Of a stretch of 52,973 bases of DNA, positions 4,828 to 39,955 are shown piece after piece. Location: the IMG/VR virus record IMGVR_UViG_3300044576_000027, positions 1-52,973 of that record; one strand, given 5' to 3'. The stretch comes from a virus. Position numbers and translations under genes: made by a program. Position 1 is the stretch's first letter. Every line of letters begins with the position of its first letter. The notes beneath the pieces are model-generated. The model searched no databases. It saw nothing but the letters and a program-made list of their open reading frames with translations, and was not told where the DNA came from.

Positions 4828-5097
4828 TTATTTTCCTTGTTTTGTTTTTATATTGTCATTTTTTAATTTAACTGTAGTGTTAAAAAGTTCTTTTATTTCT
4901 ACATCTAAAACTCTCATACCAGCCTTTACTTGTACCATTACAGAGTCATTATTGTAGTATCCATTTGATCCTAGGTAGAATGGTTTATATCCTTTATTCG
5001 TTTTCCATTCTTCTGTTATGTCTTTTTGGTTCAAAAAATACATCCCAAACTCATCAACAAGGACTGCTCCATTCTCTTTGTATGTTTCATTATTCAT
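4828..5097 (-). CDS. hypothetical protein, 89 aa
   Basis: ATG at 5097 behind AAGGAAA, two bases upstream of the two-helix membrane-protein gene. The sequence is acidic in the first half and ends in a Lys-rich tail; no motif is recognised. It is the first gene of the minus-strand run that lies back to back with the plus-strand gene at 5154. Confidence 0.5.
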   Translation of the reverse strand: MNNETYKENGAVLVDEFGMYFLNQKDITEEWKTNKGYKPFYLGSNGYYNNDSVMVQVKAGMRVLDVEIKELFNTTVKLKNDNIKTKQGK

Positions 5098-5118
5098 GCT
5101 TTTCCTTTATTATTTTGG

Positions 5119-5124
5119 TATAAT
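5119..5124 (+). promoter_or_regulatory. sigma70-type -10 box
   Basis: TATAAT preceded by TTTTGG in a T-rich stretch, about 30 bp before the ATG of the plus-strand gene at 5154. A T-rich run before an extended -10 resembles Campylobacterota housekeeping promoters. No convincing -35 is visible. Confidence 0.55.
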
Positions 5125-5153
5125 TTAATCCACAATAGCCAAAGGAGACTAAA

Positions 5154-5630
5154 ATGGATATAAAAAACTTCATTATAAAAAGAATAAATCAATCAAAATT
5201 CAAGAAAATAAAATATTTTCATAATAAAGATAGACTTACTTTATTTGATAAAAAAAATGAAGTTTATTATAATGGTGTTTTTGGGTTTAATAAAAACACA
5301 ATATACCTCACAGATTTAGTTATAGATTTAAATCTTGAAATAAATGATGTCAAATATAATCTCGATTTACTTGACTCTGTAAAAGGAAGAAGATACCAAA
5401 GAGACTATTTTAGAGACAACATCTACAACAAGATAAAAAAATGGTTCAAAAATAGAAAAATAGAAGATTCTGAACTTTTTGAATCTATCATTATGCTAAT
5501 AATAAACGGTTTCAATATTGAACCAATTTTAAAAGAACTTGATTTAATATATAAGAATGAAAACATTGAGTACTCAATGAAATCACTTCTTATGGCTAAG
5601 TATAGAGTATCAACTACTCTTCAATCTTGA
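5154..5630 (+). CDS. hypothetical protein, 158 aa, lone plus-strand gene
   Basis: ATG at 5154 behind AAAGGAGA with its own -10 box. The protein is very Lys/Asn/Ile-rich, soluble, with a basic N-terminal helix and a helical second half. I recognise no family. It is the only plus-strand gene among minus-strand genes between 1 and 13033, and its last 17 bp overlap convergently with the 66-residue gene at 5614, so the two transcripts could interfere. Confidence 0.6.
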   Translation: MDIKNFIIKRINQSKFKKIKYFHNKDRLTLFDKKNEVYYNGVFGFNKNTIYLTDLVIDLNLEINDVKYNLDLLDSVKGRRYQRDYFRDNIYNKIKKWFKNRKIEDSELFESIIMLIINGFNIEPILKELDLIYKNENIEYSMKSLLMAKYRVSTTLQS

Positions 5631-5814
5631 TTTCAACATACTTAAATTGGTGTCTGAAATCTTCATATACCCAATCTTTCTTTTCTGTATCTGTATAGGT
5701 GCAGAATTCTTCGTAATTTAGTCTTGTAGATGAAGCTAGATACTCTCCAGCATTCATATTGATAATCTCTTCCATTGCATTTGGTTCGTTTCCAGCGATT
5801 ACGATAATTTTCAT
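5614..5814 (-). CDS. hypothetical small protein, 66 aa
   Basis: ATG at 5814 behind AAAAAGGAG with ideal spacing. The protein is acidic and starts with a short hydrophobic strand (MKIIVIAGNEP). No family is recognised. It lies downstream of thyX and the micro-ORF and converges on the plus-strand gene. Confidence 0.5.
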   Translation of the reverse strand: MKIIVIAGNEPNAMEEIINMNAGEYLASSTRLNYEEFCTYTDTEKKDWVYEDFRHQFKYVEIKIEE

Positions 5815-5847
5815 CTATTACTCCTTTTTGTCTTTTTCTATATGTTT

Positions 5848-5910
5848 TTAAAAATATGCAACGATTGTGAACATAAAGCATGTTGCTACAAGTAAAATTA
5901 TACCAAACAT
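5848..5910 (-). CDS. 20-residue hydrophobic micro-protein
   Basis: The thyX stop codon and an ATG overlap as TAATG at 5908-5912, and an AAGGAAG box lies about eight bases upstream inside the end of thyX. The reading frame encodes MFGIILLVATCFMFTIVAYF, a single transmembrane helix without flanking charges. Start, ribosome site and overlap geometry all look like coupled translation. The function is unknown, and the frame is short enough that chance cannot be excluded. Confidence 0.45.
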   Translation of the reverse strand: MFGIILLVATCFMFTIVAYF

Positions 5911-6725
5911 TATTTTGTCTTCCTTTTTTTCTTATCAACAAGCGAAATGTATTTTTCTGGAATATTTAGCTTTATCTCTTTTGCCAACATCTCCATTGGA
6001 TACCAAGCAGCACCAGAATCTCTTAGTTTAAGGAAATTTTTCAAGCTTCTTAGATTAATTGTCCAAATAAGACTAACTGATGTATTTTCTGTAACTAATA
6101 CATGTTTTGCATAGTCACCAGCATTACGTTTAGCTTTTGAGTTCATCAACTTATCCATCTTGTTTTCTATTCTATCATTTGAAAAAATAATTTCAATATG
6201 ATTTTTAGTAAAACATTTCTCTTCAAAAGTCCTCTTGTCTTTGTTGACCAAATGTGATAATCCCAGATACACATAATCTAAATCAAGTGTATTGTTTATC
6301 GTTGCAAATACATCTCGATTATATAACTCTACTAAGTCCTTAAATAGGTAAATACCTCTTCTAGTATTGTATGCAATATAAAATGCATACAAGAGCATTG
6401 ATGATGTGTATCTTGTTGATTTTACGCTATATGAAGCTAGTCTATGTCTTGCTAACTCTTGTAGTACACTTCTAGGTATCATTTTAATTTCAAAAGTTAG
6501 ATTGATATGTTCAATGACACTCTCGTGATGATATGACCATACAAGTTCATCTAGAAGTTTAGATTCATCTACATCACATACACCATAGTATTTTTTATCT
6601 CTAATAAAATCACAATCACTTTTATCAAAGCTATCGTAGCAAGTTCTAGCTGCAACTTCACCAAGAAATAATGGTGTGGCATGTAGTAATGTGACTGATG
6701 GTTCTTTAAATGTATTTTGTTTCAT
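5910..6725 (-). CDS. thyX: flavin-dependent thymidylate synthase ThyX
   Basis: ThyX methylates dUMP to dTMP using methylene-tetrahydrofolate, FAD and NADPH, supplying thymidylate for phage DNA synthesis. The signature RHRxxSxNxxSxR appears at residues 93-105 as RHRLASYSVKSTR, so the usual Asn is Ser. The preceding SVIEH segment (near 69-73) and a C-terminal region with SGAAWYPMEML match the family. At 271 residues it is slightly longer than usual (about 210-250), with extra sequence in the middle. The ATG at 6725 lies 20 bp inside the upstream Rha-like gene behind GAGGAG. Confidence 0.9.
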   Translation of the reverse strand: MKQNTFKEPSVTLLHATPLFLGEVAARTCYDSFDKSDCDFIRDKKYYGVCDVDESKLLDELVWSYHHESVIEHINLTFEIKMIPRSVLQELARHRLASYSVKSTRYTSSMLLYAFYIAYNTRRGIYLFKDLVELYNRDVFATINNTLDLDYVYLGLSHLVNKDKRTFEEKCFTKNHIEIIFSNDRIENKMDKLMNSKAKRNAGDYAKHVLVTENTSVSLIWTINLRSLKNFLKLRDSGAAWYPMEMLAKEIKLNIPEKYISLVDKKKRKTK

Positions 6726-7308
6726 TTTCTTTCTCCTCTGCTAATCTATCTAATACCTTGCAGATCTCGTCTTCATCCCATGCAATAGAATCTTGAATTT
6801 GTTTTCCATACCTATTGTCTATAAGCTCTTTAACATAAGTTTCTCTAGGTACATACTTGACAATACCAATCTTAACTAAATATCTCCATGTTTCTCTTTC
6901 TCCTAAAATATCAGGATAATACATTTTAATAATCTTTCTAAGAGATTTAGTATCGTCAGAGTAAGTAACCAATTTGTGCTTTTGTTGCTCTTCAATAAGT
7001 TTTTGTTGATATTTGATTAGTTGTTCTGTTTGTTCTTCGATAAGTATTAGAAGATTTGCTCTAAGATTATCATTAAACTTGGAAGCAAACAACAAAGCTG
7101 TAAATTTATTCATTACAATAGTTTTATAAGTATTACCTCTTTTTGTTGTAAAGTCACGCTCATCATATGAGAGGAGCGTAAGAATATCTCCTGAAAGGTT
7201 ATCAAGCATCTTATTAAAATCTCTTTTAACATTATCATGTCTTTTACCTGTTGCATCAGCAAACATCTTCAATGTGTATCCGTCTGTTATGGCTGTTAAA
7301 TTATCCAT
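6706..7308 (-). CDS. Rha/BRO-family phage regulator, 200 aa
   Basis: The first 95 residues have the pattern of the Rha phage regulatory domain: a helix-turn-helix-like start with GKRHDNVKRDF, a strand, then MNKFTALLFASKF and a helix. A glutamine-rich coiled coil (about 95-115) follows, then a C-terminal domain that differs from its paralogs. ATG at 7308 with AGGAGA. Its upstream region keeps the outer helix of the leader element seen before the sibling genes but lacks the -10 box, so it may depend on transcription from the gene upstream. Probably a DNA-binding regulator; the target is unknown. Confidence 0.7.
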   Translation of the reverse strand: MDNLTAITDGYTLKMFADATGKRHDNVKRDFNKMLDNLSGDILTLLSYDERDFTTKRGNTYKTIVMNKFTALLFASKFNDNLRANLLILIEEQTEQLIKYQQKLIEEQQKHKLVTYSDDTKSLRKIIKMYYPDILGERETWRYLVKIGIVKYVPRETYVKELIDNRYGKQIQDSIAWDEDEICKVLDRLAEEKENETKYI

Positions 7309-7342
7309 TTAGTCTCCTATTAGTTTATTTTGAAGCAAAAAC

Positions 7343-7386
7343 TTCAATATGCATAAAGAATCGCCAAAAACTTTATACATATTGAA
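7343..7386 (-). promoter_or_regulatory. degenerate copy of the interleaved-helix leader
   Basis: Inverted repeat 7343-7358 / 7371-7386, 16 bp with one difference that becomes a U-G pair on the gene-sense (minus) strand. The loop is TTTTTGGCGATT, the same motif that starts the inner helix in the copies at 8327 and 39022, but its pairing partner is absent and the TATAAT box present in the others is deleted. Confidence 0.6.
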
Positions 7387-7400
7387 ACTCTTGTTGTTGC

Positions 7401-7449
7401 TTTATTCTCGGTGGTTCTTGAATAGATATTAACAGAACCATCGAATAAA
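7401..7449. promoter_or_regulatory. nested GGTTCT/AGAACC dyad
   Basis: TTTATTC (7401-7407) and GAATAAA (7443-7449) enclose GGTTCT (7413-7418) and AGAACC (7434-7439), so two inverted repeats are nested with a 15-base centre. The same arrangement recurs at 8442-8485 and, with a 10-base centre, at 38962-38983 and 39912-39933. It lies between two regulator genes and could be an operator or a transcript-end structure. Confidence 0.55.
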
Positions 7450-7453
7450 AAAA

Positions 7454-8257
7454 CTATAATCCAATTTGCTCTTTATAATATTTAACTTTATCTTCCAGTT
7501 TCTTGATAAAGTCTAATGTTACAGTCACTTCTGGACATCCAGCTTCTTTATATGCATCAATAGCTTTTGCTACAGCTTCAGGTTTAAAATGAGGATTTCC
7601 ATACTTTCTCTCTGCATAACCAATAAAGCCATCTAAGCTTTCAGGAACATCTCTTTTTATTGTTACTTTTGGAGATGTCTCCAAGTATCCATACCATTGA
7701 AGAATATCATTAATGTCTTGTACAGTAAACTCTGTAACGTTTAATAACGTTTTAATGTTTGTAACAGATGTTGAACCATCATGAGCAAATCTCATACCAT
7801 TTTGTTTTAATCTTTCAATCTCAGATTCAAGTTCAGCGATCTTGTCAAGATATTTTGACTCCATCTCAATATACTCTTTTGCTAAAGCTTTATTAAGTTC
7901 CTCTTTCTTTTGAAGCTCAATCTCTTTCTCTTTTACAATTTGTTCCTTAATGAACTTATCACAAGCAATAGCAAAATACTCATTACAATATCTAGCAAAC
8001 GATATAACCAAATCTGGATGGATATAAGTACCCTGTGGTTTTCCCTTTCCAACAACAGTATATTTAAGGTCACTCATATTGAGGGAGCTAAGTTTTGCAA
8101 TTTTTTCTGCATATTCCTTTTCATTTCTCCAATAGTTATCCATACGCTTACCATACTTCTTAGCAACATCAGTCGCGTTAAGCCATAAGCCTTTCGAAAT
8201 AGCAAAAGATACATTCGTATCAAGCAGTGTTGTGTTAGTGAATTTTTGTAATTCCAT
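7454..8257 (-). CDS. KilA-N domain regulator, 267 aa
   Basis: Residues about 20-105 carry a KilA-N DNA-binding domain: LWLNATDVAKKYGKR, then WRNEKEY, then GTYIHPDLVISFARYCN. A coiled coil (about 105-150) leads to a C-terminal domain of about 100 residues shared with the genes at 8679 and 38289; its hallmarks are KVTIKR, then P/S-ES-DGF-G, and a final YYKE. Family knowledge says KilA-N proteins bind DNA and regulate phage or host genes. Transcription probably starts at the TATAAT box at 8421-8426, which leaves a leader of about 155 nt carrying two interleaved helices. Confidence 0.78.
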   Translation of the reverse strand: MELQKFTNTTLLDTNVSFAISKGLWLNATDVAKKYGKRMDNYWRNEKEYAEKIAKLSSLNMSDLKYTVVGKGKPQGTYIHPDLVISFARYCNEYFAIACDKFIKEQIVKEKEIELQKKEELNKALAKEYIEMESKYLDKIAELESEIERLKQNGMRFAHDGSTSVTNIKTLLNVTEFTVQDINDILQWYGYLETSPKVTIKRDVPESLDGFIGYAERKYGNPHFKPEAVAKAIDAYKEAGCPEVTVTLDFIKKLEDKVKYYKEQIGL

Positions 8258-8326
8258 ATAATTCCTTATACTTGTGTGCTAAACAAGATTTAAAAAATGT
8301 AAGTTGATTAATTTATATGTGAGAGA

Positions 8327-8415
8327 TTGGCGATTTCTCACTTAAACAACTTCAATATACCTATTTAGCAGAGAAATCGCCAAAAAACCTCTAAATAGGC
8401 ATACTGAAATTGTTT
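8327..8415 (-). promoter_or_regulatory. RNA leader with two interleaved helices (copy P1)
   Basis: On the minus-strand RNA the order is B (8415-8391), A (8383-8371), B' (8368-8344), A' (8339-8327). B/B' pair over 25 positions with three G-U wobbles and no mismatch; A/A' pair over 13 positions perfectly. The -10 box ends five bases before B, so the transcript should begin at the helix base. Only four nucleotides join B' to A', too few to cross a 25-bp helix, so both helices cannot be fully formed at once. The leader precedes the KilA-N gene. Confidence 0.8.
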
Positions 8416-8420
8416 ACATA

Positions 8421-8426
8421 ATTATA
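8421..8426 (-). promoter_or_regulatory. -10 box for the KilA-N gene leader
   Basis: TATAAT on the minus strand in the context GAGTATAATTATG, five bases before leader helix B. A GGTTCT/AGAACC dyad (8451-8476, nested within ATTCTC/GAGAAT) lies about 25-55 bp upstream. Confidence 0.65.
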
Positions 8427-8441
8427 CTCTATTGTTGATTC

Positions 8442-8485
8442 ATTCTCATTGGTTCTTGAAGAATATTGATAGAACCATCGAGAAT
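8442..8485. promoter_or_regulatory. nested GGTTCT/AGAACC dyad upstream of P1
   Basis: ATTCTC (8442-8447) and GAGAAT (8480-8485) enclose GGTTCT (8451-8456) and AGAACC (8471-8476), with a 14-base centre. It sits 16-64 bp upstream of the P1 -10 box, an activator- or repressor-like position. The adjacent stretch 8486-8678 holds no gene I can support. Confidence 0.55.
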
Positions 8486-8678
8486 AGATTAAAACTTGGA
8501 TAGATAATATTCCAACTGTTCTAGCTACGAACAAAATTAATGTTTTAAAATCAAGAGATAGAGTTTTATGTTTTCTTATCGTTCCATTTACACTTTCTGA
8601 TTCAAATATTGACTGCTCAAATTGAAAAGCCAATAATTAGTTGCTCTATTCCACTTTCATGATAAAATTAATAAAAGA

Positions 8679-9410
8679 TTAAATGTCGCATTGATTTCTT
8701 TTAGCCTCTTCAATCTTTTCTTTATAGTATCTTGAAATTTGTTCAAATTCATCTACAAGTCTTTCATATTCTGATTTTATTGGTTTTTTGTTTTCAACCC
8801 ATTCTTTGTAAACCTTTTCTATAGTTTCTGGTAAAAAAGATGGAGTATTCCATTTCATTTTTCCAACAAATCCATCAAGTTCATCAGGAATTACTCTTTT
8901 AACAGTAACCTTTGCTTCTGTTCTAACAAAACCTTTCCAAACTAAAGCTGTCCAAATATCAGATTCTTTTGGAGCATCTTCATTTTGAAATGATTCCATA
9001 ATACATCTTCTAACTGTTGCGTGACCATCATCATACATTATTGGTTTTCTTGACTCTTTTACAGCTTCTTTCTTCTCTTTTTCTAGCTTTTCAAAAGCAA
9101 AGTTTATAACATTCATTCTCATATTCTCGTCAAATTTTGTCATTAGCCATAACATTGTTCTTAAATCTAGCGTAAATGTATTTATTGTTTCAATCTTTCC
9201 CTTACCTGTTTCTCTTTGTATTTTTTTGGGTACGACCGTAACGTACCCAATATTTTCTTCCGATAGTTTTGATATTGCAAGATTAAATGTTGCCTTCAGG
9301 TCACTGTGCCTTTTTCCATATTTATCTGCAATATCTTTTAATGTCATGGTAATACCTTGATCTGCAAGAAATTGCTCAGTAGGGCTTAGTTCAATTAATG
9401 ATTTACTCAT
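8679..9410 (-). CDS. Rha-family regulator, 243 aa
   Basis: The start chosen is ATG at 9410, which has an AAGGA box; a longer frame exists upstream but runs through the leader RNA. The N-terminal half is Rha-like (LKDIADKYGKRHSDL, then a strand and FTLDLRTMLWLMTKFDENMRM). A Lys/Glu-rich link leads to the C-terminal domain shared with the genes at 7454 and 38289 (KVTVKR, DELDGFVG, KPIKSEYERL, YYKEKIEEA). It is closest to the 38289 paralog. Probably a DNA-binding regulator under the leader at 9464-9572. Confidence 0.75.
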   Translation of the reverse strand: MSKSLIELSPTEQFLADQGITMTLKDIADKYGKRHSDLKATFNLAISKLSEENIGYVTVVPKKIQRETGKGKIETINTFTLDLRTMLWLMTKFDENMRMNVINFAFEKLEKEKKEAVKESRKPIMYDDGHATVRRCIMESFQNEDAPKESDIWTALVWKGFVRTEAKVTVKRVIPDELDGFVGKMKWNTPSFLPETIEKVYKEWVENKKPIKSEYERLVDEFEQISRYYKEKIEEAKRNQCDI

Positions 9411-9463
9411 AGGTAATCCTTTCTGGACATTGAAATGTAATTTGATTTTTGAGTAGTGAAGAT

Positions 9464-9572
9464 GTCGTCCAAAACACTTCACTTCGACATTTAAGTCAAC
9501 TCAGAGTTACCCATACTTTAAGTGTGAGGAGAAAATCTCCTCGAAGTGTCTTGGACGACTCTCAATTGACTT
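9464..9572 (-). promoter_or_regulatory. RNA leader with two interleaved helices (copy P3)
   Basis: Minus-strand order: B (9572-9558), A (9559-9543), B' (9507-9493), A' (9480-9464). A/A' pair over 17 positions with one G-U; B/B' over 15 with one U-G and one mismatch. Between A and B' sits a further hairpin (GAGGAGA / TCTCCTC). The stem sequences are unrelated to P1, yet the topology and the five-base spacing from the -10 box (9578-9583) are the same. Confidence 0.75.
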
Positions 9573-9577
9573 TTATA

Positions 9578-9583
9578 ATTATA
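9578..9583 (-). promoter_or_regulatory. -10 box of the P3 leader
   Basis: TATAAT on the minus strand inside the palindromic TATAATTATA, preceded by GAG as in P1. A single AGAACC half-site (9609-9614 read on the minus strand) remains upstream of it. Confidence 0.6.
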
Positions 9584-9623
9584 CTCTATTGTTGCTTCAT
9601 TCTCATTGGTTCTGGAAAAGATA

Positions 9624-9959
9624 TTAATCTCTCTTCCATAACATTTCTCTATACACTCTCAAATGAAGATACGTTTTAAATCCAAGTTTACGATAGTAAC
9701 TCTCTAATTTATCTCCTAAGCAATTTAATCTAAGATATTGATATTTTCTTTGTAACTTTTTAACAAGCTTTGAACCATCACCTTTCTCTAAAGAAAATAG
9801 TCCATTGATTTGTACTATCTTATTTTTCTGATGATGTAATCCACAATATGCTCCTCCTAATTTTACATACCTGTCACTATATTGATTTTCATCAATAAAT
9901 TCTCTTTTATCTATTTTTTTTAGATGAAATAGATACTCATTTCTAGTTATTGTCTCCAT
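9624..9959 (-). CDS. GNAT-like acetyltransferase, small
   Basis: The protein has 111 residues; the second half reads GDGSKLVKKLQ, a strand (LRLNCLG), then ESYYRKLGFKTY. This matches the end of a GNAT fold, where an acyl-CoA-binding turn is followed by the YxxxGF motif. It is shorter than typical GNATs (140-170), so the N-terminal strands are reduced. ATG at 9959 with AGGAGA. The substrate is unknown. It is immediately downstream of the RNA polymerase gene and its terminator. Confidence 0.55.
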   Translation of the reverse strand: METITRNEYLFHLKKIDKREFIDENQYSDRYVKLGGAYCGLHHQKNKIVQINGLFSLEKGDGSKLVKKLQRKYQYLRLNCLGDKLESYYRKLGFKTYLHLRVYREMLWKRD

Positions 9960-10066: not shown

Positions 10067-11780
10067 ACTTCATACAGAGTCCTGAAAACTCTTTATTATT
10101 ACCATCATATTCAACAATAACTTTCTTTAAGTCTCTAATCAACTTAGGAGTCTTAGGTGAATACTCAGCTCCAATAGACTTCAAGTAATTTACCAATATA
10201 GATTTACGTTGATTATGCATATCTCTCATGTGTATCTCTGCATTGGTTCTTACATCATCAATTACATGTGGTAATGATAGTACTGCGTCATGCACTGGTA
10301 ATGCAAACTCAATGTCATCAATAGCTGATACAATTCTATCCATAAGTATAGAATCAAGTGAATGAATTACACAGGTGTATGAAAAATTTTGATGTTGTTT
10401 ATAATCTTTAGCTACAATAACATCTGTATTATTGAAGTACTTCATAATACCTGTCTCACTATCAATAGTAAAGTAATCATTCTTTTTACTGTCAATAGGT
10501 TTAGTCTTCTTGACTTCAACTCTAAAAGGTTCGCAATAATCTCCAAGAGACACTGTATATTCACCTTTGCTATTGCAGACTTCATGATACATTGAAGATT
10601 CTTTCAACAATGTATTCATTGCAGTTATAATACCATATCTACCTTTGGTTAATTCACGTTTTAATAATCTAAGTTGCTTATCAATCTCAGTTGTTCGTGG
10701 TTCATCGAAGTTACGATCATATAGTGATGATAATTTCTCTTGACTACCATAGAATGTTGCAGTAGCTAATTTAGCTATAGGTCTATCAACACCATCTATA
10801 TACCAAGGGTCAAGTAGTTTATCGTTATTTATAACATTGCCCCAAGTTAATAATCTCTCATCATTGGTTATTAGTGCAGTTATCGTTGAGAGTGACATAC
10901 TGAAATCACTTTCAAGCACTATATCCCATTCAACAGAACCACAAGCATAAAGAGTATCTAATTTACTATAGATACGTTCTAACCAAATATTTAGATATAA
11001 CTCATCACCAATAACTCTATTTTCATAACATCTCTTACCATCAGCAATTCTGTCTTCAAGATTATCAGTCTTATTACCAACTTCATTACTAATAAAGCAG
11101 TAGATGTTATTTAATGCAGATATTGAGTCTAATGTATATACTACAGGCTCTACTCTCATTAATGCTCTACCAAGTTTATAACCCATAGGATTTAAAATCT
11201 TATTCAAAGCATTTGGTATAGCTCTACCTCTACTATCAGTGTTACAACCATTCATAGAGTATTGCAAGTCATACTCTGCATAATGACCAATGATTGTAGC
11301 AACAACATCAAAGTAAGTATATTCAAACTCTTCAGCATACTCAATATATCCTCTTTTAATCATTTCAGATGCCATTTTATGAACAACATCATCAATGATT
11401 TGAGTCTTATATTTATTGAGCATATCTACATCAAATCTAAATAATTTGTTATATTGTTTAACAAATCCTTTTCTCTTGATACCCATATCTCTTAATCCAC
11501 TTGCAGTTTTAGTTAAGCATTCATCGGTGGTTCTATTATTGAGCATATATTTCTCTAGGTTCATAGCAAATTTTTCATCTTTGAAATATTCTCTAAAAGA
11601 TTCACTAGCTTCAACAGTTGCATAATTATATTTAACTTTAGATACTACTATGTTGTTGGCAATCAATTCTTTTAGGCAAATAATAAAATATTTTTGACCT
11701 AATTCTTTGATTGCATAAGGAGTTGATACAATAAGTCTTGGAGAGTTAATTAGCATATTGTAAAGTTTATTGTTTTTCAT
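10065..11780 (-). CDS. single-subunit DNA-dependent RNA polymerase (T7/N4 RNAPII type)
   Basis: All catalytic landmarks of the T7-like family are present: DSRGR (182-186), motif A with D292 (SDFS), motif B R333xxxK337 followed by YG (344-345), a C-terminal helix segment with HSLDS (473-477), and motif C with H497-D498 (VHDAV). It should transcribe phage middle genes from phage-specific promoters. At 571 residues it is much smaller than T7 RNAP (883). In N4 the equivalent enzyme is two proteins of about 270 and 400 residues; here one chain carries all motifs and no partner is seen in the window. The ATG at 11780 follows AAAGGA, 26 bp after a strong terminator of the upstream gene. Confidence 0.9.
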   Translation of the reverse strand: MKNNKLYNMLINSPRLIVSTPYAIKELGQKYFIICLKELIANNIVVSKVKYNYATVEASESFREYFKDEKFAMNLEKYMLNNRTTDECLTKTASGLRDMGIKRKGFVKQYNKLFRFDVDMLNKYKTQIIDDVVHKMASEMIKRGYIEYAEEFEYTYFDVVATIIGHYAEYDLQYSMNGCNTDSRGRAIPNALNKILNPMGYKLGRALMRVEPVVYTLDSISALNNIYCFISNEVGNKTDNLEDRIADGKRCYENRVIGDELYLNIWLERIYSKLDTLYACGSVEWDIVLESDFSMSLSTITALITNDERLLTWGNVINNDKLLDPWYIDGVDRPIAKLATATFYGSQEKLSSLYDRNFDEPRTTEIDKQLRLLKRELTKGRYGIITAMNTLLKESSMYHEVCNSKGEYTVSLGDYCEPFRVEVKKTKPIDSKKNDYFTIDSETGIMKYFNNTDVIVAKDYKQHQNFSYTCVIHSLDSILMDRIVSAIDDIEFALPVHDAVLSLPHVIDDVRTNAEIHMRDMHNQRKSILVNYLKSIGAEYSPKTPKLIRDLKKVIVEYDGNNKEFSGLCMK

Positions 11781-13531: not shown

Positions 13532-13710
13532 GTTATATATATATTAATATATTATATATAAGGGATTAAATTTACCTAAAAATGCTTATTGATACCGAGA
13601 TTGTTGGATTTAAACGTGTTTTTTTACGAACAAGATTCTGTTTCTAAATGGGTAGTTACGAACAAGATATTGTTTCTAGAGTAGTGTTTACGAACAAGAT
13701 TCTGTTTCTA
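13532..13710. other. candidate replication origin: AT-rich stretch and three iterons
   Basis: A pure A/T run of about 30 bp (13532-13562) is followed by three 22-bp repeats of TACGAACAAGATTCTGTTTC+TA at 13625-13646, 13657-13678 (two changes) and 13689-13710. Starts are exactly 32 bp apart, about three helical turns, so bound proteins would face the same side. Each repeat is an imperfect palindrome (GAACAAGA / TCTGTTTC). A Rep-like gene begins 83 bp downstream. The region 13034-13792 has no protein gene I can support. Confidence 0.6.
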
Positions 13711-14697: not shown

Positions 14698-14794
14698 GAT
14701 TCTTTTTATGAGCTACCAACTCAAACTCTTGAACACATAGTTTATCTGTGTAGTTCATAAAAGGAATCAATGAGAGTTTAGAAGTTGGTAGCTC
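14698..14794 (+). promoter_or_regulatory. RNA leader with two interleaved helices (copy P4)
   Basis: Order B (14698-14711), A (14710-14720 and 14723-14729), B' (14755-14768), A' (14773-14779 and 14784-14794). B/B' pair over 14 positions with one U-G. A/A' pair as GAGCTACCAAC/GTTGGTAGCTC and AAACTCT/AGAGTTT without error. A small hairpin lies between A and B'. Same topology as P1-P3 but unrelated stem sequence; the gene behind it is now a remnant. Confidence 0.7.
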
Positions 14795-14831
14795 TATAAC
14801 TCCATTAAATTATATTCCTAAGAAAAATTAA

Positions 14832-18201: not shown

Positions 18202-19095
18202 ATGAAACAAGATAATGTAGGTGAAAAAAAAGATAACTTTGAAGTGACTAGATTTTCAAGATTAAGCAATGATGCTATAGAGACGCTTAAGCAGAACTTA
18301 CCAAATAAATACTCAGTAGCTTTAACTGATGAGATATACTCTTTAATTGACAAGATGAAAGAAGAAAATTCTATGAATGACTCAGATGCAGTATCATCTA
18401 TATTAGAGAATTTTACATTTGTAAAAGATATAAAGGGATTAACTTTTGATAGATACTGTGTAGCATTAAGGTTTGTGTCATTGGTTCTTAATGGTGTTAC
18501 TCAGATTGATGCCTGGAAGATAATATTTCCTGAAAAAACAAAGCGTGGATACAGTCAAGAACAGATGTTGAAATGGTCAACTGCTTATGCTAATACGAAG
18601 TTGGTTTCAACGTTGAAAGCTAGAATGATGGTATCATTTTCTATACAATATTCACATTTTAGACATGCAGCGATACAAAAAGAGTACGATTTGATGATGG
18701 GAATACCATCTGTTTGTAAGATACCAAAATATAAAAGAACCAAAGATGGAAAGATTAAGCTAGATAAAGATGGTCAAAAGCAAATATTAAGAACGAAACA
18801 TGGAAATATTATGTATGAAGAGGTGTATCAGGTTGTTACTCCTATGGTTCAACATCAAGCTGCTCAAACTATATTGGAGATTACTAAACCTAAAGAAGAG
18901 TCTGAAATTGATATAAATGTTGCAATATCTGTTGATGAAACAAATGAAAAGATGAAAATAAAAAGAACCATGATGGAAATAGCACAGGCACAAAGAGAGA
19001 GACTTGAAAGAGGCGAAAGCATAGATGATGTCCAGAGGATAGGTGATATTATAGAAACATCTCTTGTTGATGACAAGGAGGATGAAGATGAGTAA
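18202..19095 (+). CDS. terminase small subunit, N4 type
   Basis: ATG at 18202 follows AAGGAG; the frame extends seven codons upstream to a TTG lacking a site. The 297-residue protein has a helical N-terminal half with a DNA-binding-like block (VTQIDAWKIIFPEKTKRGYSQEQ) and an acidic Glu/Asp-rich C-terminus that could contact the large subunit. The assignment rests mainly on its place immediately before the large terminase (8-bp overlap) and on length similar to the N4-like subunit. It should recognise phage DNA for packaging. Confidence 0.7.
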   Translation: MKQDNVGEKKDNFEVTRFSRLSNDAIETLKQNLPNKYSVALTDEIYSLIDKMKEENSMNDSDAVSSILENFTFVKDIKGLTFDRYCVALRFVSLVLNGVTQIDAWKIIFPEKTKRGYSQEQMLKWSTAYANTKLVSTLKARMMVSFSIQYSHFRHAAIQKEYDLMMGIPSVCKIPKYKRTKDGKIKLDKDGQKQILRTKHGNIMYEEVYQVVTPMVQHQAAQTILEITKPKEESEIDINVAISVDETNEKMKIKRTMMEIAQAQRERLERGESIDDVQRIGDIIETSLVDDKEDEDE

Positions 19096-22000
19096 AATTG
19101 AGAAAATTGGTGATAAGAAATATTTAGCTACTGCAAATAATGGCAGTACATTTAATTTTGTAGATAAAATACCAAGAACTAAAGATGAAATTAGTTGGGC
19201 AGTAAAAAATAACTATGTAATACCAGCTTTTGAAGCTATGGATATGGAAATAGACTTACTGTTAGACCATGTAGATTTAAAATTAGATTGGTACATCCCA
19301 TCTGTTGAAGCATTCGATTTTATGAACTTCATGAGATTGTGTCTTGGAAGTGAACCAGAAAATTTGAATAGTAAAGCACATTACTTCTTTGTAGATGCAA
19401 TGTTTGGCTCAGAAGAGATTAAGTCATATTTTCAAGTGAGAGGTATAGATTTTGATGAGTTGAGTAGAGATGTTATTATCTTATCTAGCCGAGAATTTTC
19501 AAAAGCTCTTCATTACAGTACTCTTATAGCTACTCCAAGTGGTCCAAAAGAGATTAGATATATAAAAGATGGAGATATGGTAATAAGCAGGACTGGTAAG
19601 CCAACAAGAGTAATCAAGAAATCAAATATGATTATGGATAACACTTTTGAGATGGTTCTTGAAGATGGAAGAAGATTTAAGTCATCTAATGACCATAGAC
19701 ATATATTGTGGAGAAGAAAAAGTAAGTATATTGGATATTATAAAGATGGAAAGAAATGCTCTAAAAAAGATGGTGGAAAAGCATATTTTATAAATGGAAT
19801 GGAAGAAGTTGTTATGACTTCACAGGAGTTGGCAAGTGAAAACATTGTTACAAATAGAACAATAACAGATAATCAAAGAAGAGGCTATGAAAACAAATAT
19901 TATATACCAAGAATGGATAGTGGAATACAGTACGATCCAGTTAATTTTCCAATTGATCCATATACTGTTGGTGTAATTCTTGGAGATGGTTCTGTCTCAG
20001 AGGGAGTTAAGTTAAGTCAAACGAGTATGGCTAAAAAATATAGAAAATCATTGACTAACAATAATCGAAATAGAAGAATGTACAAAGATGATCAAAAGTA
20101 TGGGGAATCAAGAGGTAGAACTAGAATTACATGCCACAAAGACGATGTAGATAACTTGATAAATAATATTCCTTATGAACTTGCAGTAAAAGGATATAAG
20201 TCAAGAAAGAATATAGTAGATTTAATTATGCCAAAAGATATGAATTCTGTTATAGCAGAATATATTGGTTGTGACAATAGTTACACAAAGAAAGTACCAA
20301 AAATTTTATTGAATGGATCAGTAAGTCAAAGATTATCACTTCTTCAAGGTCTAATGGATACAGATGGAACAATCAATAAAAAAGGTAGCACATCTTACAC
20401 CACTGTGTCAAAACAGTTAGCAGATGATATTGTCTATTTGGTGCGTTCATTAGGTGGTTCTGCTAGAATTTCAGAACGTAAAACTAATAGTAAGTTTGGA
20501 AAAGCATATCAAGTTTTAATCTCTATAAATACATATTCTATTTTTAGATTAAAGAGAAAAAAGGATAGAGAAACATATATTCCAGCAAGAGACTATTTTC
20601 CAATAAAATCATTTGAACTTGTTCATAGTGAACCATCATATTGTTTAACCGTTGAGTGTCCAACATCATCGTTTGTTATGGCTGATGGATTGATAACTCA
20701 CAATAGCACTATTACGATATTTTTTATACTTTATATGGCTGCAAGAGGTATTAAGCCAAACTTTGGAAGAGTAAATTATGGAATGTATGTATCAGATAGA
20801 ATGAAAGGTAACGTAAAGGTTACAATGCAGACAATAGAGACAATCTACATGGGAAGTGAATACTTACAGTCAATATTTGAAGAAGTGCATTTCACTGATG
20901 AAGAGTGTTGGTTTATTAGAAAACCACAGACTCAAAAAGAGATTAGAATTTATAATAAAGCCATGGCACAAGGTAAGAAGATTAAAGAGGTGCCTAAACG
21001 TTCAGAGAGAATGTTTAAAATTACTGGACTTGGTTGCTCTGGTGGTCGTGGTTCTCGAAGTGGTTTAGATAGACCTCAATTTGCAATTTTTGATGATATG
21101 ATTGCCAATGAAAAAGATGCTTACTCTAAAGCTATACTTGACTCTATTGACTCTACAATTGAAGCTGATGTTGGTTCATCTTTAAGTGGTAATGGTAATT
21201 TTAGAATATATATTGGTACAGGTTATCATGTTGATGACCCAGTTTGTAAGAGAGTTAGAGAGCTAGCTGGTATCCCAGTAGTATTTCCAAAAGCTGAGGT
21301 TGCTCCACATGGAGATATTTATGATAGTAACGGTGAACTTGTAAAGCCTGCTCTCAAAGAAGAAGATTTTGTATCTGTATGGAAAGATAGACACTCATTT
21401 AAGAACCAAAGAGCAGACTATGCAAAGGCAGAATTAGCATACAAACGTGGAAATCCAAAGCCACTAAAAACGATAAATCAAGAGTTCTATATTAGATTGA
21501 CATCTGAGCATGAAAGACTAATACCAGATAGTTGTATAAAGACAAAAGACTTGTCATATATAAAAGAAAATGCTATGTTCTTTAATTGGCTATTAACAAC
21601 AGACTATACTACCACAGGAAATAAGAACTCAGACTTTTCAGTTGCAATATTGTGGGCTATGGATAGCGAAGAAAATATGTATATGATTGACATTAAAGCA
21701 GAGAAGATGGATTTGACTGAACAGTATCAAAACACATTAAATATGATAAATGACGCTATTAGTTGGGGTGCTTCTTACGTTGAGATTGGTGTTGAGATTG
21801 ATGGTCAACAATCTTTGCATCTTATAGCGTTGGAGAGATTTTTTGAGAAGAATAAAGCTTCGGAGAAGTTAATATTTGCAAAGCAAATTGAGAAGAGTGG
21901 TAAAAAGGTTACATGGGAAGGAATCAAATCTAAAGGAAGTGGTGATAAATTTTGGAGACTTAAGATTACAGCAGATGAGTTTTATCGTGGAAAAATAATT

Positions 22001-22249
22001 ATAAGTAAAGAGTTGGCTGAGAGTGGTTCTACAGATTTTGAGGTATTAATGCATCAGATAAAAAATGTATCGCAAACAGAAATAAAAACTAAAAATGACG
22101 ACTGCCTTGATGGTATAAGCCAAATATCTTTAATAGATAGAGATTTTCCAACAATGTCATTTGAAGAGGCAAGACGTATGCAAGAGGAGATAGGTTATAA
22201 TGATGATTATGAGTATTCTGACTTTGGATACGGAACTATAGAATATTAA
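19088..22249 (+). CDS. terminase large subunit interrupted by an intein
   Basis: ATG at 19088 behind AAGGAGG. The precursor has 1053 residues; removing the 400-residue intein leaves a 653-residue packaging ATPase/nuclease. Rejoined exteins give SREFSK-STITIF, the Walker A region. Walker B is FAIFDD, and an RNase H-type nuclease starts at LLTTDYTTTGN with a late acidic CLDGIS. The enzyme translocates DNA into the prohead through the portal and cuts it. The gene is active only if the intein splices. Strong match to phage TerL by motif; the N4-like subtype is inferred from gene order. Confidence 0.9.
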   Translation: MSKIEKIGDKKYLATANNGSTFNFVDKIPRTKDEISWAVKNNYVIPAFEAMDMEIDLLLDHVDLKLDWYIPSVEAFDFMNFMRLCLGSEPENLNSKAHYFFVDAMFGSEEIKSYFQVRGIDFDELSRDVIILSSREFSKALHYSTLIATPSGPKEIRYIKDGDMVISRTGKPTRVIKKSNMIMDNTFEMVLEDGRRFKSSNDHRHILWRRKSKYIGYYKDGKKCSKKDGGKAYFINGMEEVVMTSQELASENIVTNRTITDNQRRGYENKYYIPRMDSGIQYDPVNFPIDPYTVGVILGDGSVSEGVKLSQTSMAKKYRKSLTNNNRNRRMYKDDQKYGESRGRTRITCHKDDVDNLINNIPYELAVKGYKSRKNIVDLIMPKDMNSVIAEYIGCDNSYTKKVPKILLNGSVSQRLSLLQGLMDTDGTINKKGSTSYTTVSKQLADDIVYLVRSLGGSARISERKTNSKFGKAYQVLISINTYSIFRLKRKKDRETYIPARDYFPIKSFELVHSEPSYCLTVECPTSSFVMADGLITHNSTITIFFILYMAARGIKPNFGRVNYGMYVSDRMKGNVKVTMQTIETIYMGSEYLQSIFEEVHFTDEECWFIRKPQTQKEIRIYNKAMAQGKKIKEVPKRSERMFKITGLGCSGGRGSRSGLDRPQFAIFDDMIANEKDAYSKAILDSIDSTIEADVGSSLSGNGNFRIYIGTGYHVDDPVCKRVRELAGIPVVFPKAEVAPHGDIYDSNGELVKPALKEEDFVSVWKDRHSFKNQRADYAKAELAYKRGNPKPLKTINQEFYIRLTSEHERLIPDSCIKTKDLSYIKENAMFFNWLLTTDYTTTGNKNSDFSVAILWAMDSEENMYMIDIKAEKMDLTEQYQNTLNMINDAISWGASYVEIGVEIDGQQSLHLIALERFFEKNKASEKLIFAKQIEKSGKKVTWEGIKSKGSGDKFWRLKITADEFYRGKIIISKELAESGSTDFEVLMHQIKNVSQTEIKTKNDDCLDGISQISLIDRDFPTMSFEEARRMQEEIGYNDDYEYSDFGYGTIEY
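19505..20704 (+). mobile_element. LAGLIDADG intein in TerL (400 aa)
   Basis: The intein begins at Ala (ALHYSTLIATPSG, block A) and ends HN before Ser (VMADGLITHN, block G), splitting the Walker A lysine from the following Ser. It starts with Ala instead of Cys/Ser; CLTVE in block F and Thr before the final HN are compatible with a class 3 (WCT-type) mechanism, with a Trp near the block B His. Two homing-endonuclease motifs are intact: VGVILGDGS and LLQGLMDTDGT. The endonuclease should cut intein-free terL alleles at this site. Confidence 0.88.
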
Positions 22250-38288: not shown

Positions 38289-38945
38289 TTGAAAGAGGTT
38301 GCAGATAAATATGGAAAGCAAAACAAGAATCTTTTGCGAGATTTTAACAACATGGTTGCAGAATTGTCAGAGAAAAATTTTAACCAGCTCAGATTTGAGC
38401 CTGTTAAATATATTGACAAGAAAAACGAAGAAAGACCAACAGTGATGGTAGATTTTAAGACTCTTGTTTGGTTTGTAACCAAATTTGATCACAACCTCAG
38501 ATTAAAAGTTATTAATGAAGCTTTTGCTAAGCTAGAACAACAAAAAGAACAAGAAAAACTTGAAGCTGTAAAACAAGCTAAACTTCCAAAAGTATATGAC
38601 AATGGATATACTTCTGTTCGTGGTGCAATTAGTTCTCATTTTGAAGACATAAAAGATGATGTAAATGAAAGTGATGTTTGGGATGCTCTAGTCAGTCAAG
38701 AAGTAGTTGTAACAAGAGCAAAGGTAACAATTAAACGTGAACTGTCTGAATCATTTGATGGATTAGCTGGAACAGCAAAACATAATATGGCTGTATTTGA
38801 TCCACAATTAGTTAGAAACTGTTATGAAAAATGGATTGAAGCTGGTAAACCTATTAAATCAGAGTATGAAAGATTAATAGAAGAGTTTGAACAAATATCT
38901 GAGTACTACAAGGAAAAGATTGAGGAAGCTAAGAAAAAATTATAA
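38289..38945 (+). CDS. Rha-family regulator, 218 aa, late-region copy
   Basis: The best start is TTG at 38289, but similarity to the paralog at 8679 (LKEVADKYGK against LKDIADKYGK) continues upstream into the leader hairpin, and no ATG exists there. The N-terminus may therefore be truncated or use a rare start. The domain order matches: Rha-like half, Lys/Glu link, and the shared C-terminal domain (KVTIKREL, ESFDGLAG, KPIKSEYERL, YYKEKIEEAKK). Inserted after the capsid terminator, so a separately controlled moron-type gene. Confidence 0.65.
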   Translation: MKEVADKYGKQNKNLLRDFNNMVAELSEKNFNQLRFEPVKYIDKKNEERPTVMVDFKTLVWFVTKFDHNLRLKVINEAFAKLEQQKEQEKLEAVKQAKLPKVYDNGYTSVRGAISSHFEDIKDDVNESDVWDALVSQEVVVTRAKVTIKRELSESFDGLAGTAKHNMAVFDPQLVRNCYEKWIEAGKPIKSEYERLIEEFEQISEYYKEKIEEAKKKL

Positions 38946-38961
38946 CTACCTCTCCATCATT

Positions 38962-38983
38962 GGTTCTCATAATATCTAGAACC
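38962..38983. promoter_or_regulatory. GGTTCT-N10-AGAACC dyad
   Basis: GGTTCT (38962-38967) and AGAACC (38978-38983) lie 28 bp before the -10 box at 39012, matching the dyad at 39912-39933. Confidence 0.6.
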
Positions 38984-39011
38984 ACAAAGATAAGATTAAA
39001 CTACAATAAGG

Positions 39012-39017
39012 TATAAT
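39012..39017 (+). promoter_or_regulatory. -10 box of the P2 leader
   Basis: AAGGTATAATTCATT, four bases before helix B of the leader and 28 bp after a GGTTCT-N10-AGAACC dyad (38962-38983). Confidence 0.65.
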
Positions 39018-39021
39018 TCAT

Positions 39022-39114
39022 TTAAACAACTTTTATATGCTCAGTTATGAAGTTTTTGGCGAGGCTTTCTGCATGGCTGAGTATATGAAAGTTGTTTAAG
39101 TGAAAGCCTTGCCA
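39022..39114 (+). promoter_or_regulatory. RNA leader with two interleaved helices (copy P2)
   Basis: Order B (39022-39044), A (39057-39069), B' (39077-39099), A' (39102-39114). B/B' pair over 23 positions with two wobbles; A/A' over 13 with one wobble; no mismatches. The copy is related in sequence to P1 on the other strand: it shares TTTTTGGCGA, GTTGTTTAAGTGA and AATCAACTTA with it, while many stem bases differ and stay paired. It leads to the frameshifted gene at 39181. Confidence 0.8.
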
Positions 39115-39180: not shown

Positions 39181-39895
39181 ATGCAAAGCGATATTATCAA
39201 ATTAGATAACAATGGTGCTGCTTATGCAGTTGTAAAAGATATAGCTGAGTATTGTGAGGTAGATGTTAAAGCTACAAGACAATTGGTTTTAAATCATATT
39301 GATGAGTTCAATGATGTTACAAATAAGTTGCAAAATAAAATTGGTGGCATTTCAAATGGTGCTTCCAAAGATTCGTTTAAGGTTCCAGAATTGAAACTAA
39401 TTAAAAAAAGAGGAACATCAAGAGATGAAGTTGATTGGTCAAAAACAAAACTTTATCAACCTCACATAGAATTGTTGCTTATGATGATGAAAAAATACAA
39501 AGATAGTTAGAAGTCATAAAGTTGACGTTATTGTCGATCTATTTGCCTCAAAATTTGAACTAATACAAACAAAACTTGAAAATCAAAAACTACTAATTGA
39601 AAAACAAAATACTGAGTTAGTTTTACTTGAAAATAAAGTTAATCAACTTGAAACTGATAAATTTTATGATTGGGAAGAAGAGTACTCATCTGTATCAAGA
39701 TTTATCAAAGAAAATAAACTAAAGATTACATCTACTGAATTACTTGATAAACTTGAAGAAGCTAAGCAAATTGAAACTAAGCAAATTACTAGGATGGTTA
39801 GATTTTTAACAGAAGAATCTGATGGTAGAGTTTCAAAGAAAGGTACATTGTTGTTTAAGAATAGTTTACTCAAAAAATTATCTGACACTATCTAA
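39181..39895 (+). pseudogene. Rha/BRO-like regulator broken by a frameshift in an A6 run
   Basis: The first frame (39181-39510) encodes 109 residues with a Rha-like beginning and stops soon after LLLMMMKKYKDS. A second frame, shifted by +1, continues without a stop to 39895 and encodes KNTKIVRSHKVDVIVDLF, a coiled coil and a C-terminal domain ending SLLKKLSDTI. Dropping one A from the run at 39490-39495 joins both into about 237 residues with the usual Rha order. This is a real mutation, slippage-controlled expression, or a sequencing error; the gene counts as broken as written. Confidence 0.7.
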
Positions 39896-39911
39896 CTCAT
39901 TTTTAATCATT

Positions 39912-39933
39912 GGTTCTCAAAATATCGAGAACC
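39912..39933. promoter_or_regulatory. GGTTCT-N10-AGAACC dyad
   Basis: GGTTCT (39912-39917) and AGAACC (39928-39933), with ACAAAGATAA after it, the same as at 38962-38993. The -10 box of the next gene (39956-39961) lies 22 bp downstream. Confidence 0.6.
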
Positions 39934-39955
39934 ACAAAGATAAAACAAACTATGC

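Follow-up and report, generated by a model that had tools for sequence, protein, structure and literature searches.

A few temperate phages are known to use antisense immunity RNAs such as c4. KilA-N and Rha genes are abundant in phages but poorly understood. In the C4 RNA of phages P1 and P7 (RF01695; targets a1b1, RF03163, and a2/b2), an outer stem encloses the antisense segments. In the phage P1 record, the target a2 starts 4 nt past the end of c4 and b2 is located at the icd ribosome-binding site. The C4 operon encodes an antirepressor, and c4 represses ant (PMC8546580). IsrK of Gifsy-1 (RF01394) is a leader RNA that is both a part of the mRNA and trans-acting on its own mRNA (PMC4825925); it activates translation via the coupling of orf45 and anrP. 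The phage P1 a1b1 leader 5' of c4 (L162 731-812) weakly resembled isrK in Rfam (35.1 bits, E 2.7e-4), a hint from sequence that isrK and c4-a1b1 may be related. In phage P4, the CI RNA with seqA and seqC is an antisense RNA that is made from the operon leader and base-pairs with stretches of that leader complementary to it (PMC4825925). In contrast to the leaders described below, the P4 RNA has a complementary copy on either side, and it acts by termination.

The window analyzed here is the whole stretch of an IMG/VR virus record, 52,973 nt long. Its portal is of the SU10/N4 type (PF23899, 1.5e-55), its terminase contains an intein and is closest to those of Vibrio N4-like phages at about 30% identity, and its ThyX is nearest to those of Campylobacter phages (32%). 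The intein in the terminase large subunit (19064-22249) carries LAGLIDADG/Hom_end endonuclease domains, an arrangement shared with several Vibrio N4-like phages. A sequence-only reading of the window had proposed four leader RNAs with two interleaved helices in the order B-A-B'-A'. The four copies and their order were verified in gene-sense orientation. The two-helix layout was right for B and A-A' but incomplete, as a third helix, hairpin C enclosing A', was present in all four copies. The features identified in the window were as follows.

8416-8319 (-): leader P1, order B-A-B'-A'
8421-8426 (-): predicted -10 box TATAAT of P1, 4 nt 5' of B
8391-8416 (-): 5' arm of helix B of P1, 26 bp with 8343-8368 (23 Watson-Crick and 3 G-U pairs, zero mismatches)
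8343-8368 (-): 3' arm of helix B of P1 (B')
8371-8383 (-): segment A of P1, UUGGCGAUUUCUC, in the B loop, 13 perfect bp with 8327-8339
8327-8339 (-): segment A' of P1, partly in the loop of hairpin C and partly next to it
8319-8341 (-): hairpin C of P1, GUGAGA[aaucgccaauc]UCUCAC
7454-8257 (-): KilA-N gene 3' of P1 (PF04383, 6e-14)
9572-9455 (-): leader P2, order B-A-B'-A'
9578-9583 (-): predicted -10 box TATAAT of P2
9558-9572 (-): 5' arm of helix B of P2, 15 positions with one G-G, which is common to R5b
9493-9507 (-): 3' arm of helix B of P2
9526-9542 (-): inner hairpin D of P2, GAGGAGA/UCUCCUC, with an equivalent in R5b
9543-9559 (-): segment A of P2, 17 bp
9464-9480 (-): segment A' of P2
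9455-9483 (-): hairpin C of P2, AGUGAAG[..]CUUCACU
8679-9410 (-): Rha/antirepressor-like gene 3' of P2 (PHROG 8235, 7e-6), orthologues found, start ATG assumed at 9410
14698-14806 (+): leader P3, order B-A-B'-A'
14698-14711 (+): 5' arm of helix B of P3
14755-14768 (+): 3' arm of helix B of P3
14710-14721 (+): segment A of P3, 12 perfect bp, with a second block 14723-14729 pairing with 14773-14779
14783-14794 (+): segment A' of P3
14769-14806 (+): predicted hairpin C of P3, AAUGaGAGUU[..]AACUcCAUU, a shorter alternative being the one scored
39021-39122 (+): leader P4, order B-A-B'-A'
39012-39017 (+): predicted -10 box TATAAT of P4
39021-39049 (+): 5' arm of helix B of P4, 29 bp (24 Watson-Crick and 5 G-U pairs)
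39072-39100 (+): 3' arm of helix B of P4
39057-39069 (+): segment A of P4, in the B loop, 12 Watson-Crick and 1 G-U pairs
39102-39114 (+): segment A' of P4
39100-39122 (+): hairpin C of P4, GUGAAAG[ccuugccau]CUUUCAC, p=0.0025 against shuffles, also obtained from RNAalifold
39181-39510 (+): ORF 3' of P4, no family match, early stop of the frame
7336-7393 (-): P5, B hairpin alone, loop UUUUUGGCGA as in P1 and P4
38198-38310 (+): P6, a likely sixth leader, in which only B is certain (UUAGAGGUUACC/GGUAACCUCUAA at 38223-38234/38276-38287)
7413-7439, about 8447-8482, 38961-38984 and 39911-39934: inverted repeats GGTTCT..AGAACC or GAACCATC..GGTGGTTC, also upstream of R3-R5 in contig L132

The leaders had been placed upstream of Rha/KilA-N genes, which held for the family but not for P3, followed by a short ORF only with no recognizable regulator, nor for the ORF behind P4. 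In the latter region (39181-39895), coding potential was observed beyond the early stop in another frame; the ORF may be broken by a frameshift, or two genes may be present. The region 7343-7386 had been taken for a decayed fifth copy. This sequence (P5) indeed has no A', C or -10 box, but its helix B is intact, with 23 bp, 4 G-U pairs and zero A-C; it is located 27 nt 5' of a Rha gene (6706-7308, PF09669, 1.3e-7). P6 is homologous to Q2 and R2 of other phages and overlaps the start of a Rha ORF (38289-38945), and its promoter GGTACAATTCATT resembles that of P4. The inverted repeats, present 5' of most regulator modules, are perhaps terminators of the preceding gene. Three direct repeats, about TTACGAACAAGATTCTGTTTCTAAA, were noticed in a gene-poor stretch at 13610-13710.

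Single-protein and terminase scans of viral contigs revealed no close relatives of the window, genome-collection scans no encoded relatives, and DNA patterns derived from the loop and from P6/Q2 no matches outside the same contig. The contigs recovered with a portal profile were all distant N4-like ones (at most 29% identity), and the leader descriptor matched none of them. A profile of two Rha paralogues identified orthologues (51% identity) in contigs G001 (9,760 nt) and G002 (58,956 nt), and a KilA-N profile identified contig G003 (76,293 nt), whose 3,626-aa ORF encodes an N4-type virion RNA polymerase (phrog_2206, 5e-142). Leaders were identified in these contigs by inspecting the DNA upstream of KilA-N/Rha genes: S1 in G001, Q1, Q2, Q2b, Q3, Q4 and Q5 in G002, and R1-R4, R5a and R5b in G003. 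The family extends past the window to about 18 copies, including those of the three further phage contigs; in 14 copies, belonging to four phages, the B-A-B'-A' order is accompanied by hairpin C. The genes behind the leaders encode KilA-N proteins or match PHROG anti-repressor/Rha profiles. Contig L124 contains a KilA-N gene without a leader.

Leaders of orthologous genes were often mutually unrecognizable in sequence, the layout being nonetheless retained. Three alignable homology groups were found: P1/P4/Q1, P2/R5b (with a common G-G mismatch in B and a common inner hairpin) and the TTAGAGG group P6/Q2/R1/R2/R3 with Q2b/Q3. Tandem leaders preceded one gene in two cases, Q2+Q2b (L098 about 11360-11680) and R5a+R5b (L132 about 6780-7046 (-)), and in each the first leader has a B hairpin but shows no clear A-A' pairing. 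Two group I introns (RF00028; 98.5 and 52.7 bits) were detected in contig L100 (G001) at 4997-5889 (-), in or beside a split major capsid gene. One KilA-N protein (L098 11676-12347) is fused to a T5orf172/MUG113 (GIY-YIG-like) domain, which suggests homing-type mobility of such regulator genes.

Hairpins before free-standing endonuclease genes prevent expression from read-through transcripts. The leaders could similarly insulate inserted selfish regulator genes, their folds blocking expression from late-operon read-through. The modules are indeed located between structural genes (after the capsid and virion RNA polymerase genes), with predicted promoters of their own, several have a terminator-looking hairpin on the 5' side, and one encodes the above-mentioned fusion. 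However, the whole leader would be present in read-through and own transcripts alike and masking of the ribosome site is not conserved, making such a role highly improbable.

The conserved helices are three in number. Helix B is a hairpin of 10-29 bp with segment A in its apical region, often adjoining an inner hairpin. Hairpin C, 3' of B', displays in its loop A', the complement of A, roughly 40-70 nt upstream of the start codon and away from the ribosome-binding site. Due to the divergence of the three homology groups, too large for a joint alignment, swap tests took the place of a covariance model. Pairing of A with its own A' scored 435 in comparison with 225 +/- 20 after swapping A' among the copies (p<2e-5; maximum of 355.5 in 50,000 permutations), the copies being not all independent and P3, P6, Q2, Q4 and Q5 the weaker cases. 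This is in line with the sequence-independent covariation in both B and A claimed before. No convincing A-A' pair was present in Q5, R5a, P5 and probably Q2. In P1 and P4, which are 75% identical overall, A and A' diverged together, and each leader thus recognized its own A' about two times better than that of the other. In the phages examined, no complement of A of at least 13 nt was found elsewhere in the same phage, except its own A'.

The arms of hairpin C also matched each other better than swapped ones (p<2e-5, and 8e-5 with close relatives removed) and exceeded shuffles (Fisher p 2e-4). RNAalifold applied to the P1/P4/Q1 alignment recovered B and C unprompted, with 9 pairs altered on both sides. 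Among 131 base pairs compared in homologous leader pairs, registered by hand and with helix ends partly set by eye, 40 were double-changed and retained, 9 were changed on one side and 10 were broken. Moderate support was obtained for a further helix E, formed by the B' tail and the segment directly after C (own versus swapped p=0.009). Dinucleotide shuffles of the same leaders (P1, P2, P4 and relatives from other phages) gave the interleaved score in 0 of 120 trials. A descriptor composed of the -10 box, B, A and C recovered true leaders in the four phages, with one weak match in six shuffled genomes and 0 matches in other contigs totaling 1.35 Mb, the majority from phages and with many N4-like contigs among them; being tuned on these same copies, it gauges rarity and not discovery power. 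Each leader would fold into two hairpins with complementary loops, maintained copy by copy by compensating mutations.

The imperfect stem positions of P1-P4 included about 10-12 G-U, depending on the helix ends, zero A-C and one G-G, which agreed with the previous count. In the top helices, scored symmetrically with G-U and A-C of equal weight, gene-sense G-U prevailed over A-C by about 37:5 in B and 42:8 in B and A tallied together, supporting the proposed selection on gene-sense RNA structure; the ratio was 54 to 28 over all helices, poor ones included. The asymmetry stemmed from B, as helix A alone gave 5:3 (not significant). Such data bear on the possibility that the palindromes are DNA elements bound by phage regulators or used in recombination, with an incidental RNA fold. 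In favor of it, the arms form inverted repeats and the genes encode members of DNA-binding families, but one strand tolerates G-U and not A-C, which nearly refutes this explanation. Moreover, orthologous genes have unrelated leader sequences while the single-strand topology and loops are conserved. The DNA-site explanation was rejected on strand asymmetry and is scarcely credible.

A TATAAT/TATACT box ended 3-9 nt 5' of helix B in nearly all copies, so that, as judged from these boxes, transcripts probably start at or near the base of B, as had been proposed. The predicted position of B at the transcript start, together with the retention of B without A' in P5 and R5a, would also suit a purely structural 5' end, in which B and C shield the mRNA from 5'-end-dependent decay or antisense pairing and the loop complementarity serves dimerization or packing. 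This explanation leaves the strict copy-by-copy co-variation of A and A' unaccounted for, and it is considered improbable.

The helices had been described as mutually exclusive and joined by about 2-4 nt. The link between B' and A' was 1-4 nt in P1, P4 and Q1, but longer in P2 (about 12 nt) and P3 (14 nt). As B comprises 22-29 bp in P1, P4 and Q1, the long rod with the short link makes A unreachable for A' in cis unless B opens; a complete B and A-A' cannot coexist in cis in P1 and P4, and an H-type pseudoknot, with both helices together in one molecule, is excluded by geometry in P1, P4 and Q1. Coexistence in cis is possible only with a short B and a long link, e.g., in Q3 and Q2b. The exclusivity did not amount to a uniform switch, since the energies varied: in constrained folding, B was favored over the A state by 9-16 kcal/mol in P1, P4, Q1, S1 and Q4, whereas in eight other copies the A state equaled B or surpassed it, by as much as 16 kcal/mol. 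As B is in most copies too long, and the link too short, for A to meet A' with B intact, the helices would be either mutually exclusive in cis or paired between transcripts.

These energies also weigh on a switch acting in cis, in which B forms first, A' invades from the loop and A-A' replaces B-B', the freed B' pairing, as helix E, with the segment directly 3' of hairpin C, and the two states setting regulator transcription or translation. The eight copies with a favorable A state, the overlap of A with the top of B in R2, R3, R4, Q3 and P3, and the possible helix E speak for it. Nevertheless, in P1, P4, Q1, S1 and Q4, B is more stable and the first to form, so that an additional factor would be needed, and no consistent terminator or masked Shine-Dalgarno sequence in the folds separated the two states. 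Because the energetics differ among the copies, a single cis switch cannot account for the whole family, whereas inter-molecular pairing would be possible for all. A uniform cis switch was ruled out on these grounds, and switching in cis as the general explanation seems rather unlikely.

The layout itself had been considered undescribed; this was not upheld, since phage P1 c4 has the B-A-B'-A' order, but no described sequence or structure family matched the leaders. As in C4, one transcript carries the outer stem and, immediately behind it, the target (14 leader copies); by their profile matches, the genes behind the leaders are candidate antirepressors. Unlike C4, which has a' and b', the leaders contain a single A segment, A' belongs to a small hairpin that lies 40-70 nt ahead of the start codon and not at the ribosome-binding site, the RNA would start at the promoter, and several copies occur per genome in N4-like phages. 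The Rfam C4 model (RF01695), which gave 68.8 bits for phage P1 c4 as a control, showed no match up to E 5 in window 7000-9800 and L098, none up to E 0.5 in L123 and L100, and none at gathering in the whole window. No match to isrK (RF01394) or any other Rfam model was detected in the leaders searched; matches at E<5 were microRNA-like hairpins far below gathering and were judged to be due to chance. IsrK yields a short form, whereas neither a terminator nor a processing site that would free B as a small RNA was identified in the leaders. The best reading is that the leaders work like C4 in layout without being C4 members, and form a new leader family along the lines of C4/IsrK antisense autoregulation.

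Structured leaders were also observed upstream of KilA-N genes in unrelated phages, with interleaved or ribosome-binding-site-masking hairpins.

L149 (Pseudomonas phage D3), 1340-1438: KilA-N leader
L148 (Helicobacter pametensis prophage), 1370-1480: KilA-N leader
L150, L153 and L156: further KilA-N leaders

In phage D3 and the H. pametensis prophage, an outer stem and an inner segment complementary to a downstream site were present, as in the family described here, but the complementary site is the ribosome-binding region, and in enterobacterial phages the long stem itself extends to it. None of these leaders showed sequence similarity to the present ones, and the interleaving was significant for the H. 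pametensis prophage (p=0.008) and not for D3 (p=0.36). They are a lead only. Weakly and below gathering, L148 resembled Rfam sRNA-Xcc1 (33.8 bits) and L149 the int-alpA RNA (23.6 bits). In the open literature, subscription papers being outside the scope, nothing was found on KilA-N leader RNAs, Schitoviridae with KilA-N, or kissing loops with antirepressors.

The favored explanation, with chances slightly below even, is that every copy forms the 5' end region of the mRNA for a single regulator and brings together an antisense element and the target it recognizes; the result would be RNA feedback specific to that gene, by the logic of phage P1 c4 RNA and Gifsy-1 IsrK. By sequence, transcription probably starts at the foot of hairpin B; B displays A apically and is followed by a short linker, hairpin C with the A' loop and, some 40-70 nt on, the KilA-N/Rha start codon. 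As A has no other complement of at least 13 nt in its own phage, its natural partner would be another copy of the same transcript. The stable B hairpin, within the mRNA or cut out, may recognize the A' loop of such a copy; the loop-loop pairing could spread into the stems, open C and alter expression of the downstream gene. In effect, each gene would possess its own private feedback, sensing dose through RNA, and in R2-R4, Q3 and P3 the same pairing could also run in cis by strand exchange. We infer the regulatory outcome, the processing and the sign of control; by analogy only, repression is more likely than activation. The position of A' off the ribosome-binding site, with no visible route from pairing to expression, speaks against antisense feedback, as do the failure to find a site that would free B, the non-significant asymmetry of helix A and the copies short of a convincing A-A' pair. 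Since N4-like phages are normally virulent, a role in lysogenic immunity as in phage P1 is doubtful.

In its broader and more tentative form, which we would not yet favor over its negation, the proposal is of a new class of regulatory RNA in which the regulator genes of an N4-like phage would each have a loop-loop address that is private and orthogonal. Through it, transcripts from one gene would count each other, and compensated mutations would diversify the addresses, avoiding cross-talk between paralogues. Each regulator gene appears to have its own private RNA recognition switch. The c4 architecture appears again here, several times within phages of the virulent N4-like type and with no sequence relationship detected, and the copy-by-copy covariation marks loop-loop recognition as the selected function. 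The leaders offer natural, mutually orthogonal RNA pairs ready for testing, and the findings suggest that KilA-N/Rha genes may commonly be under leader-RNA control.
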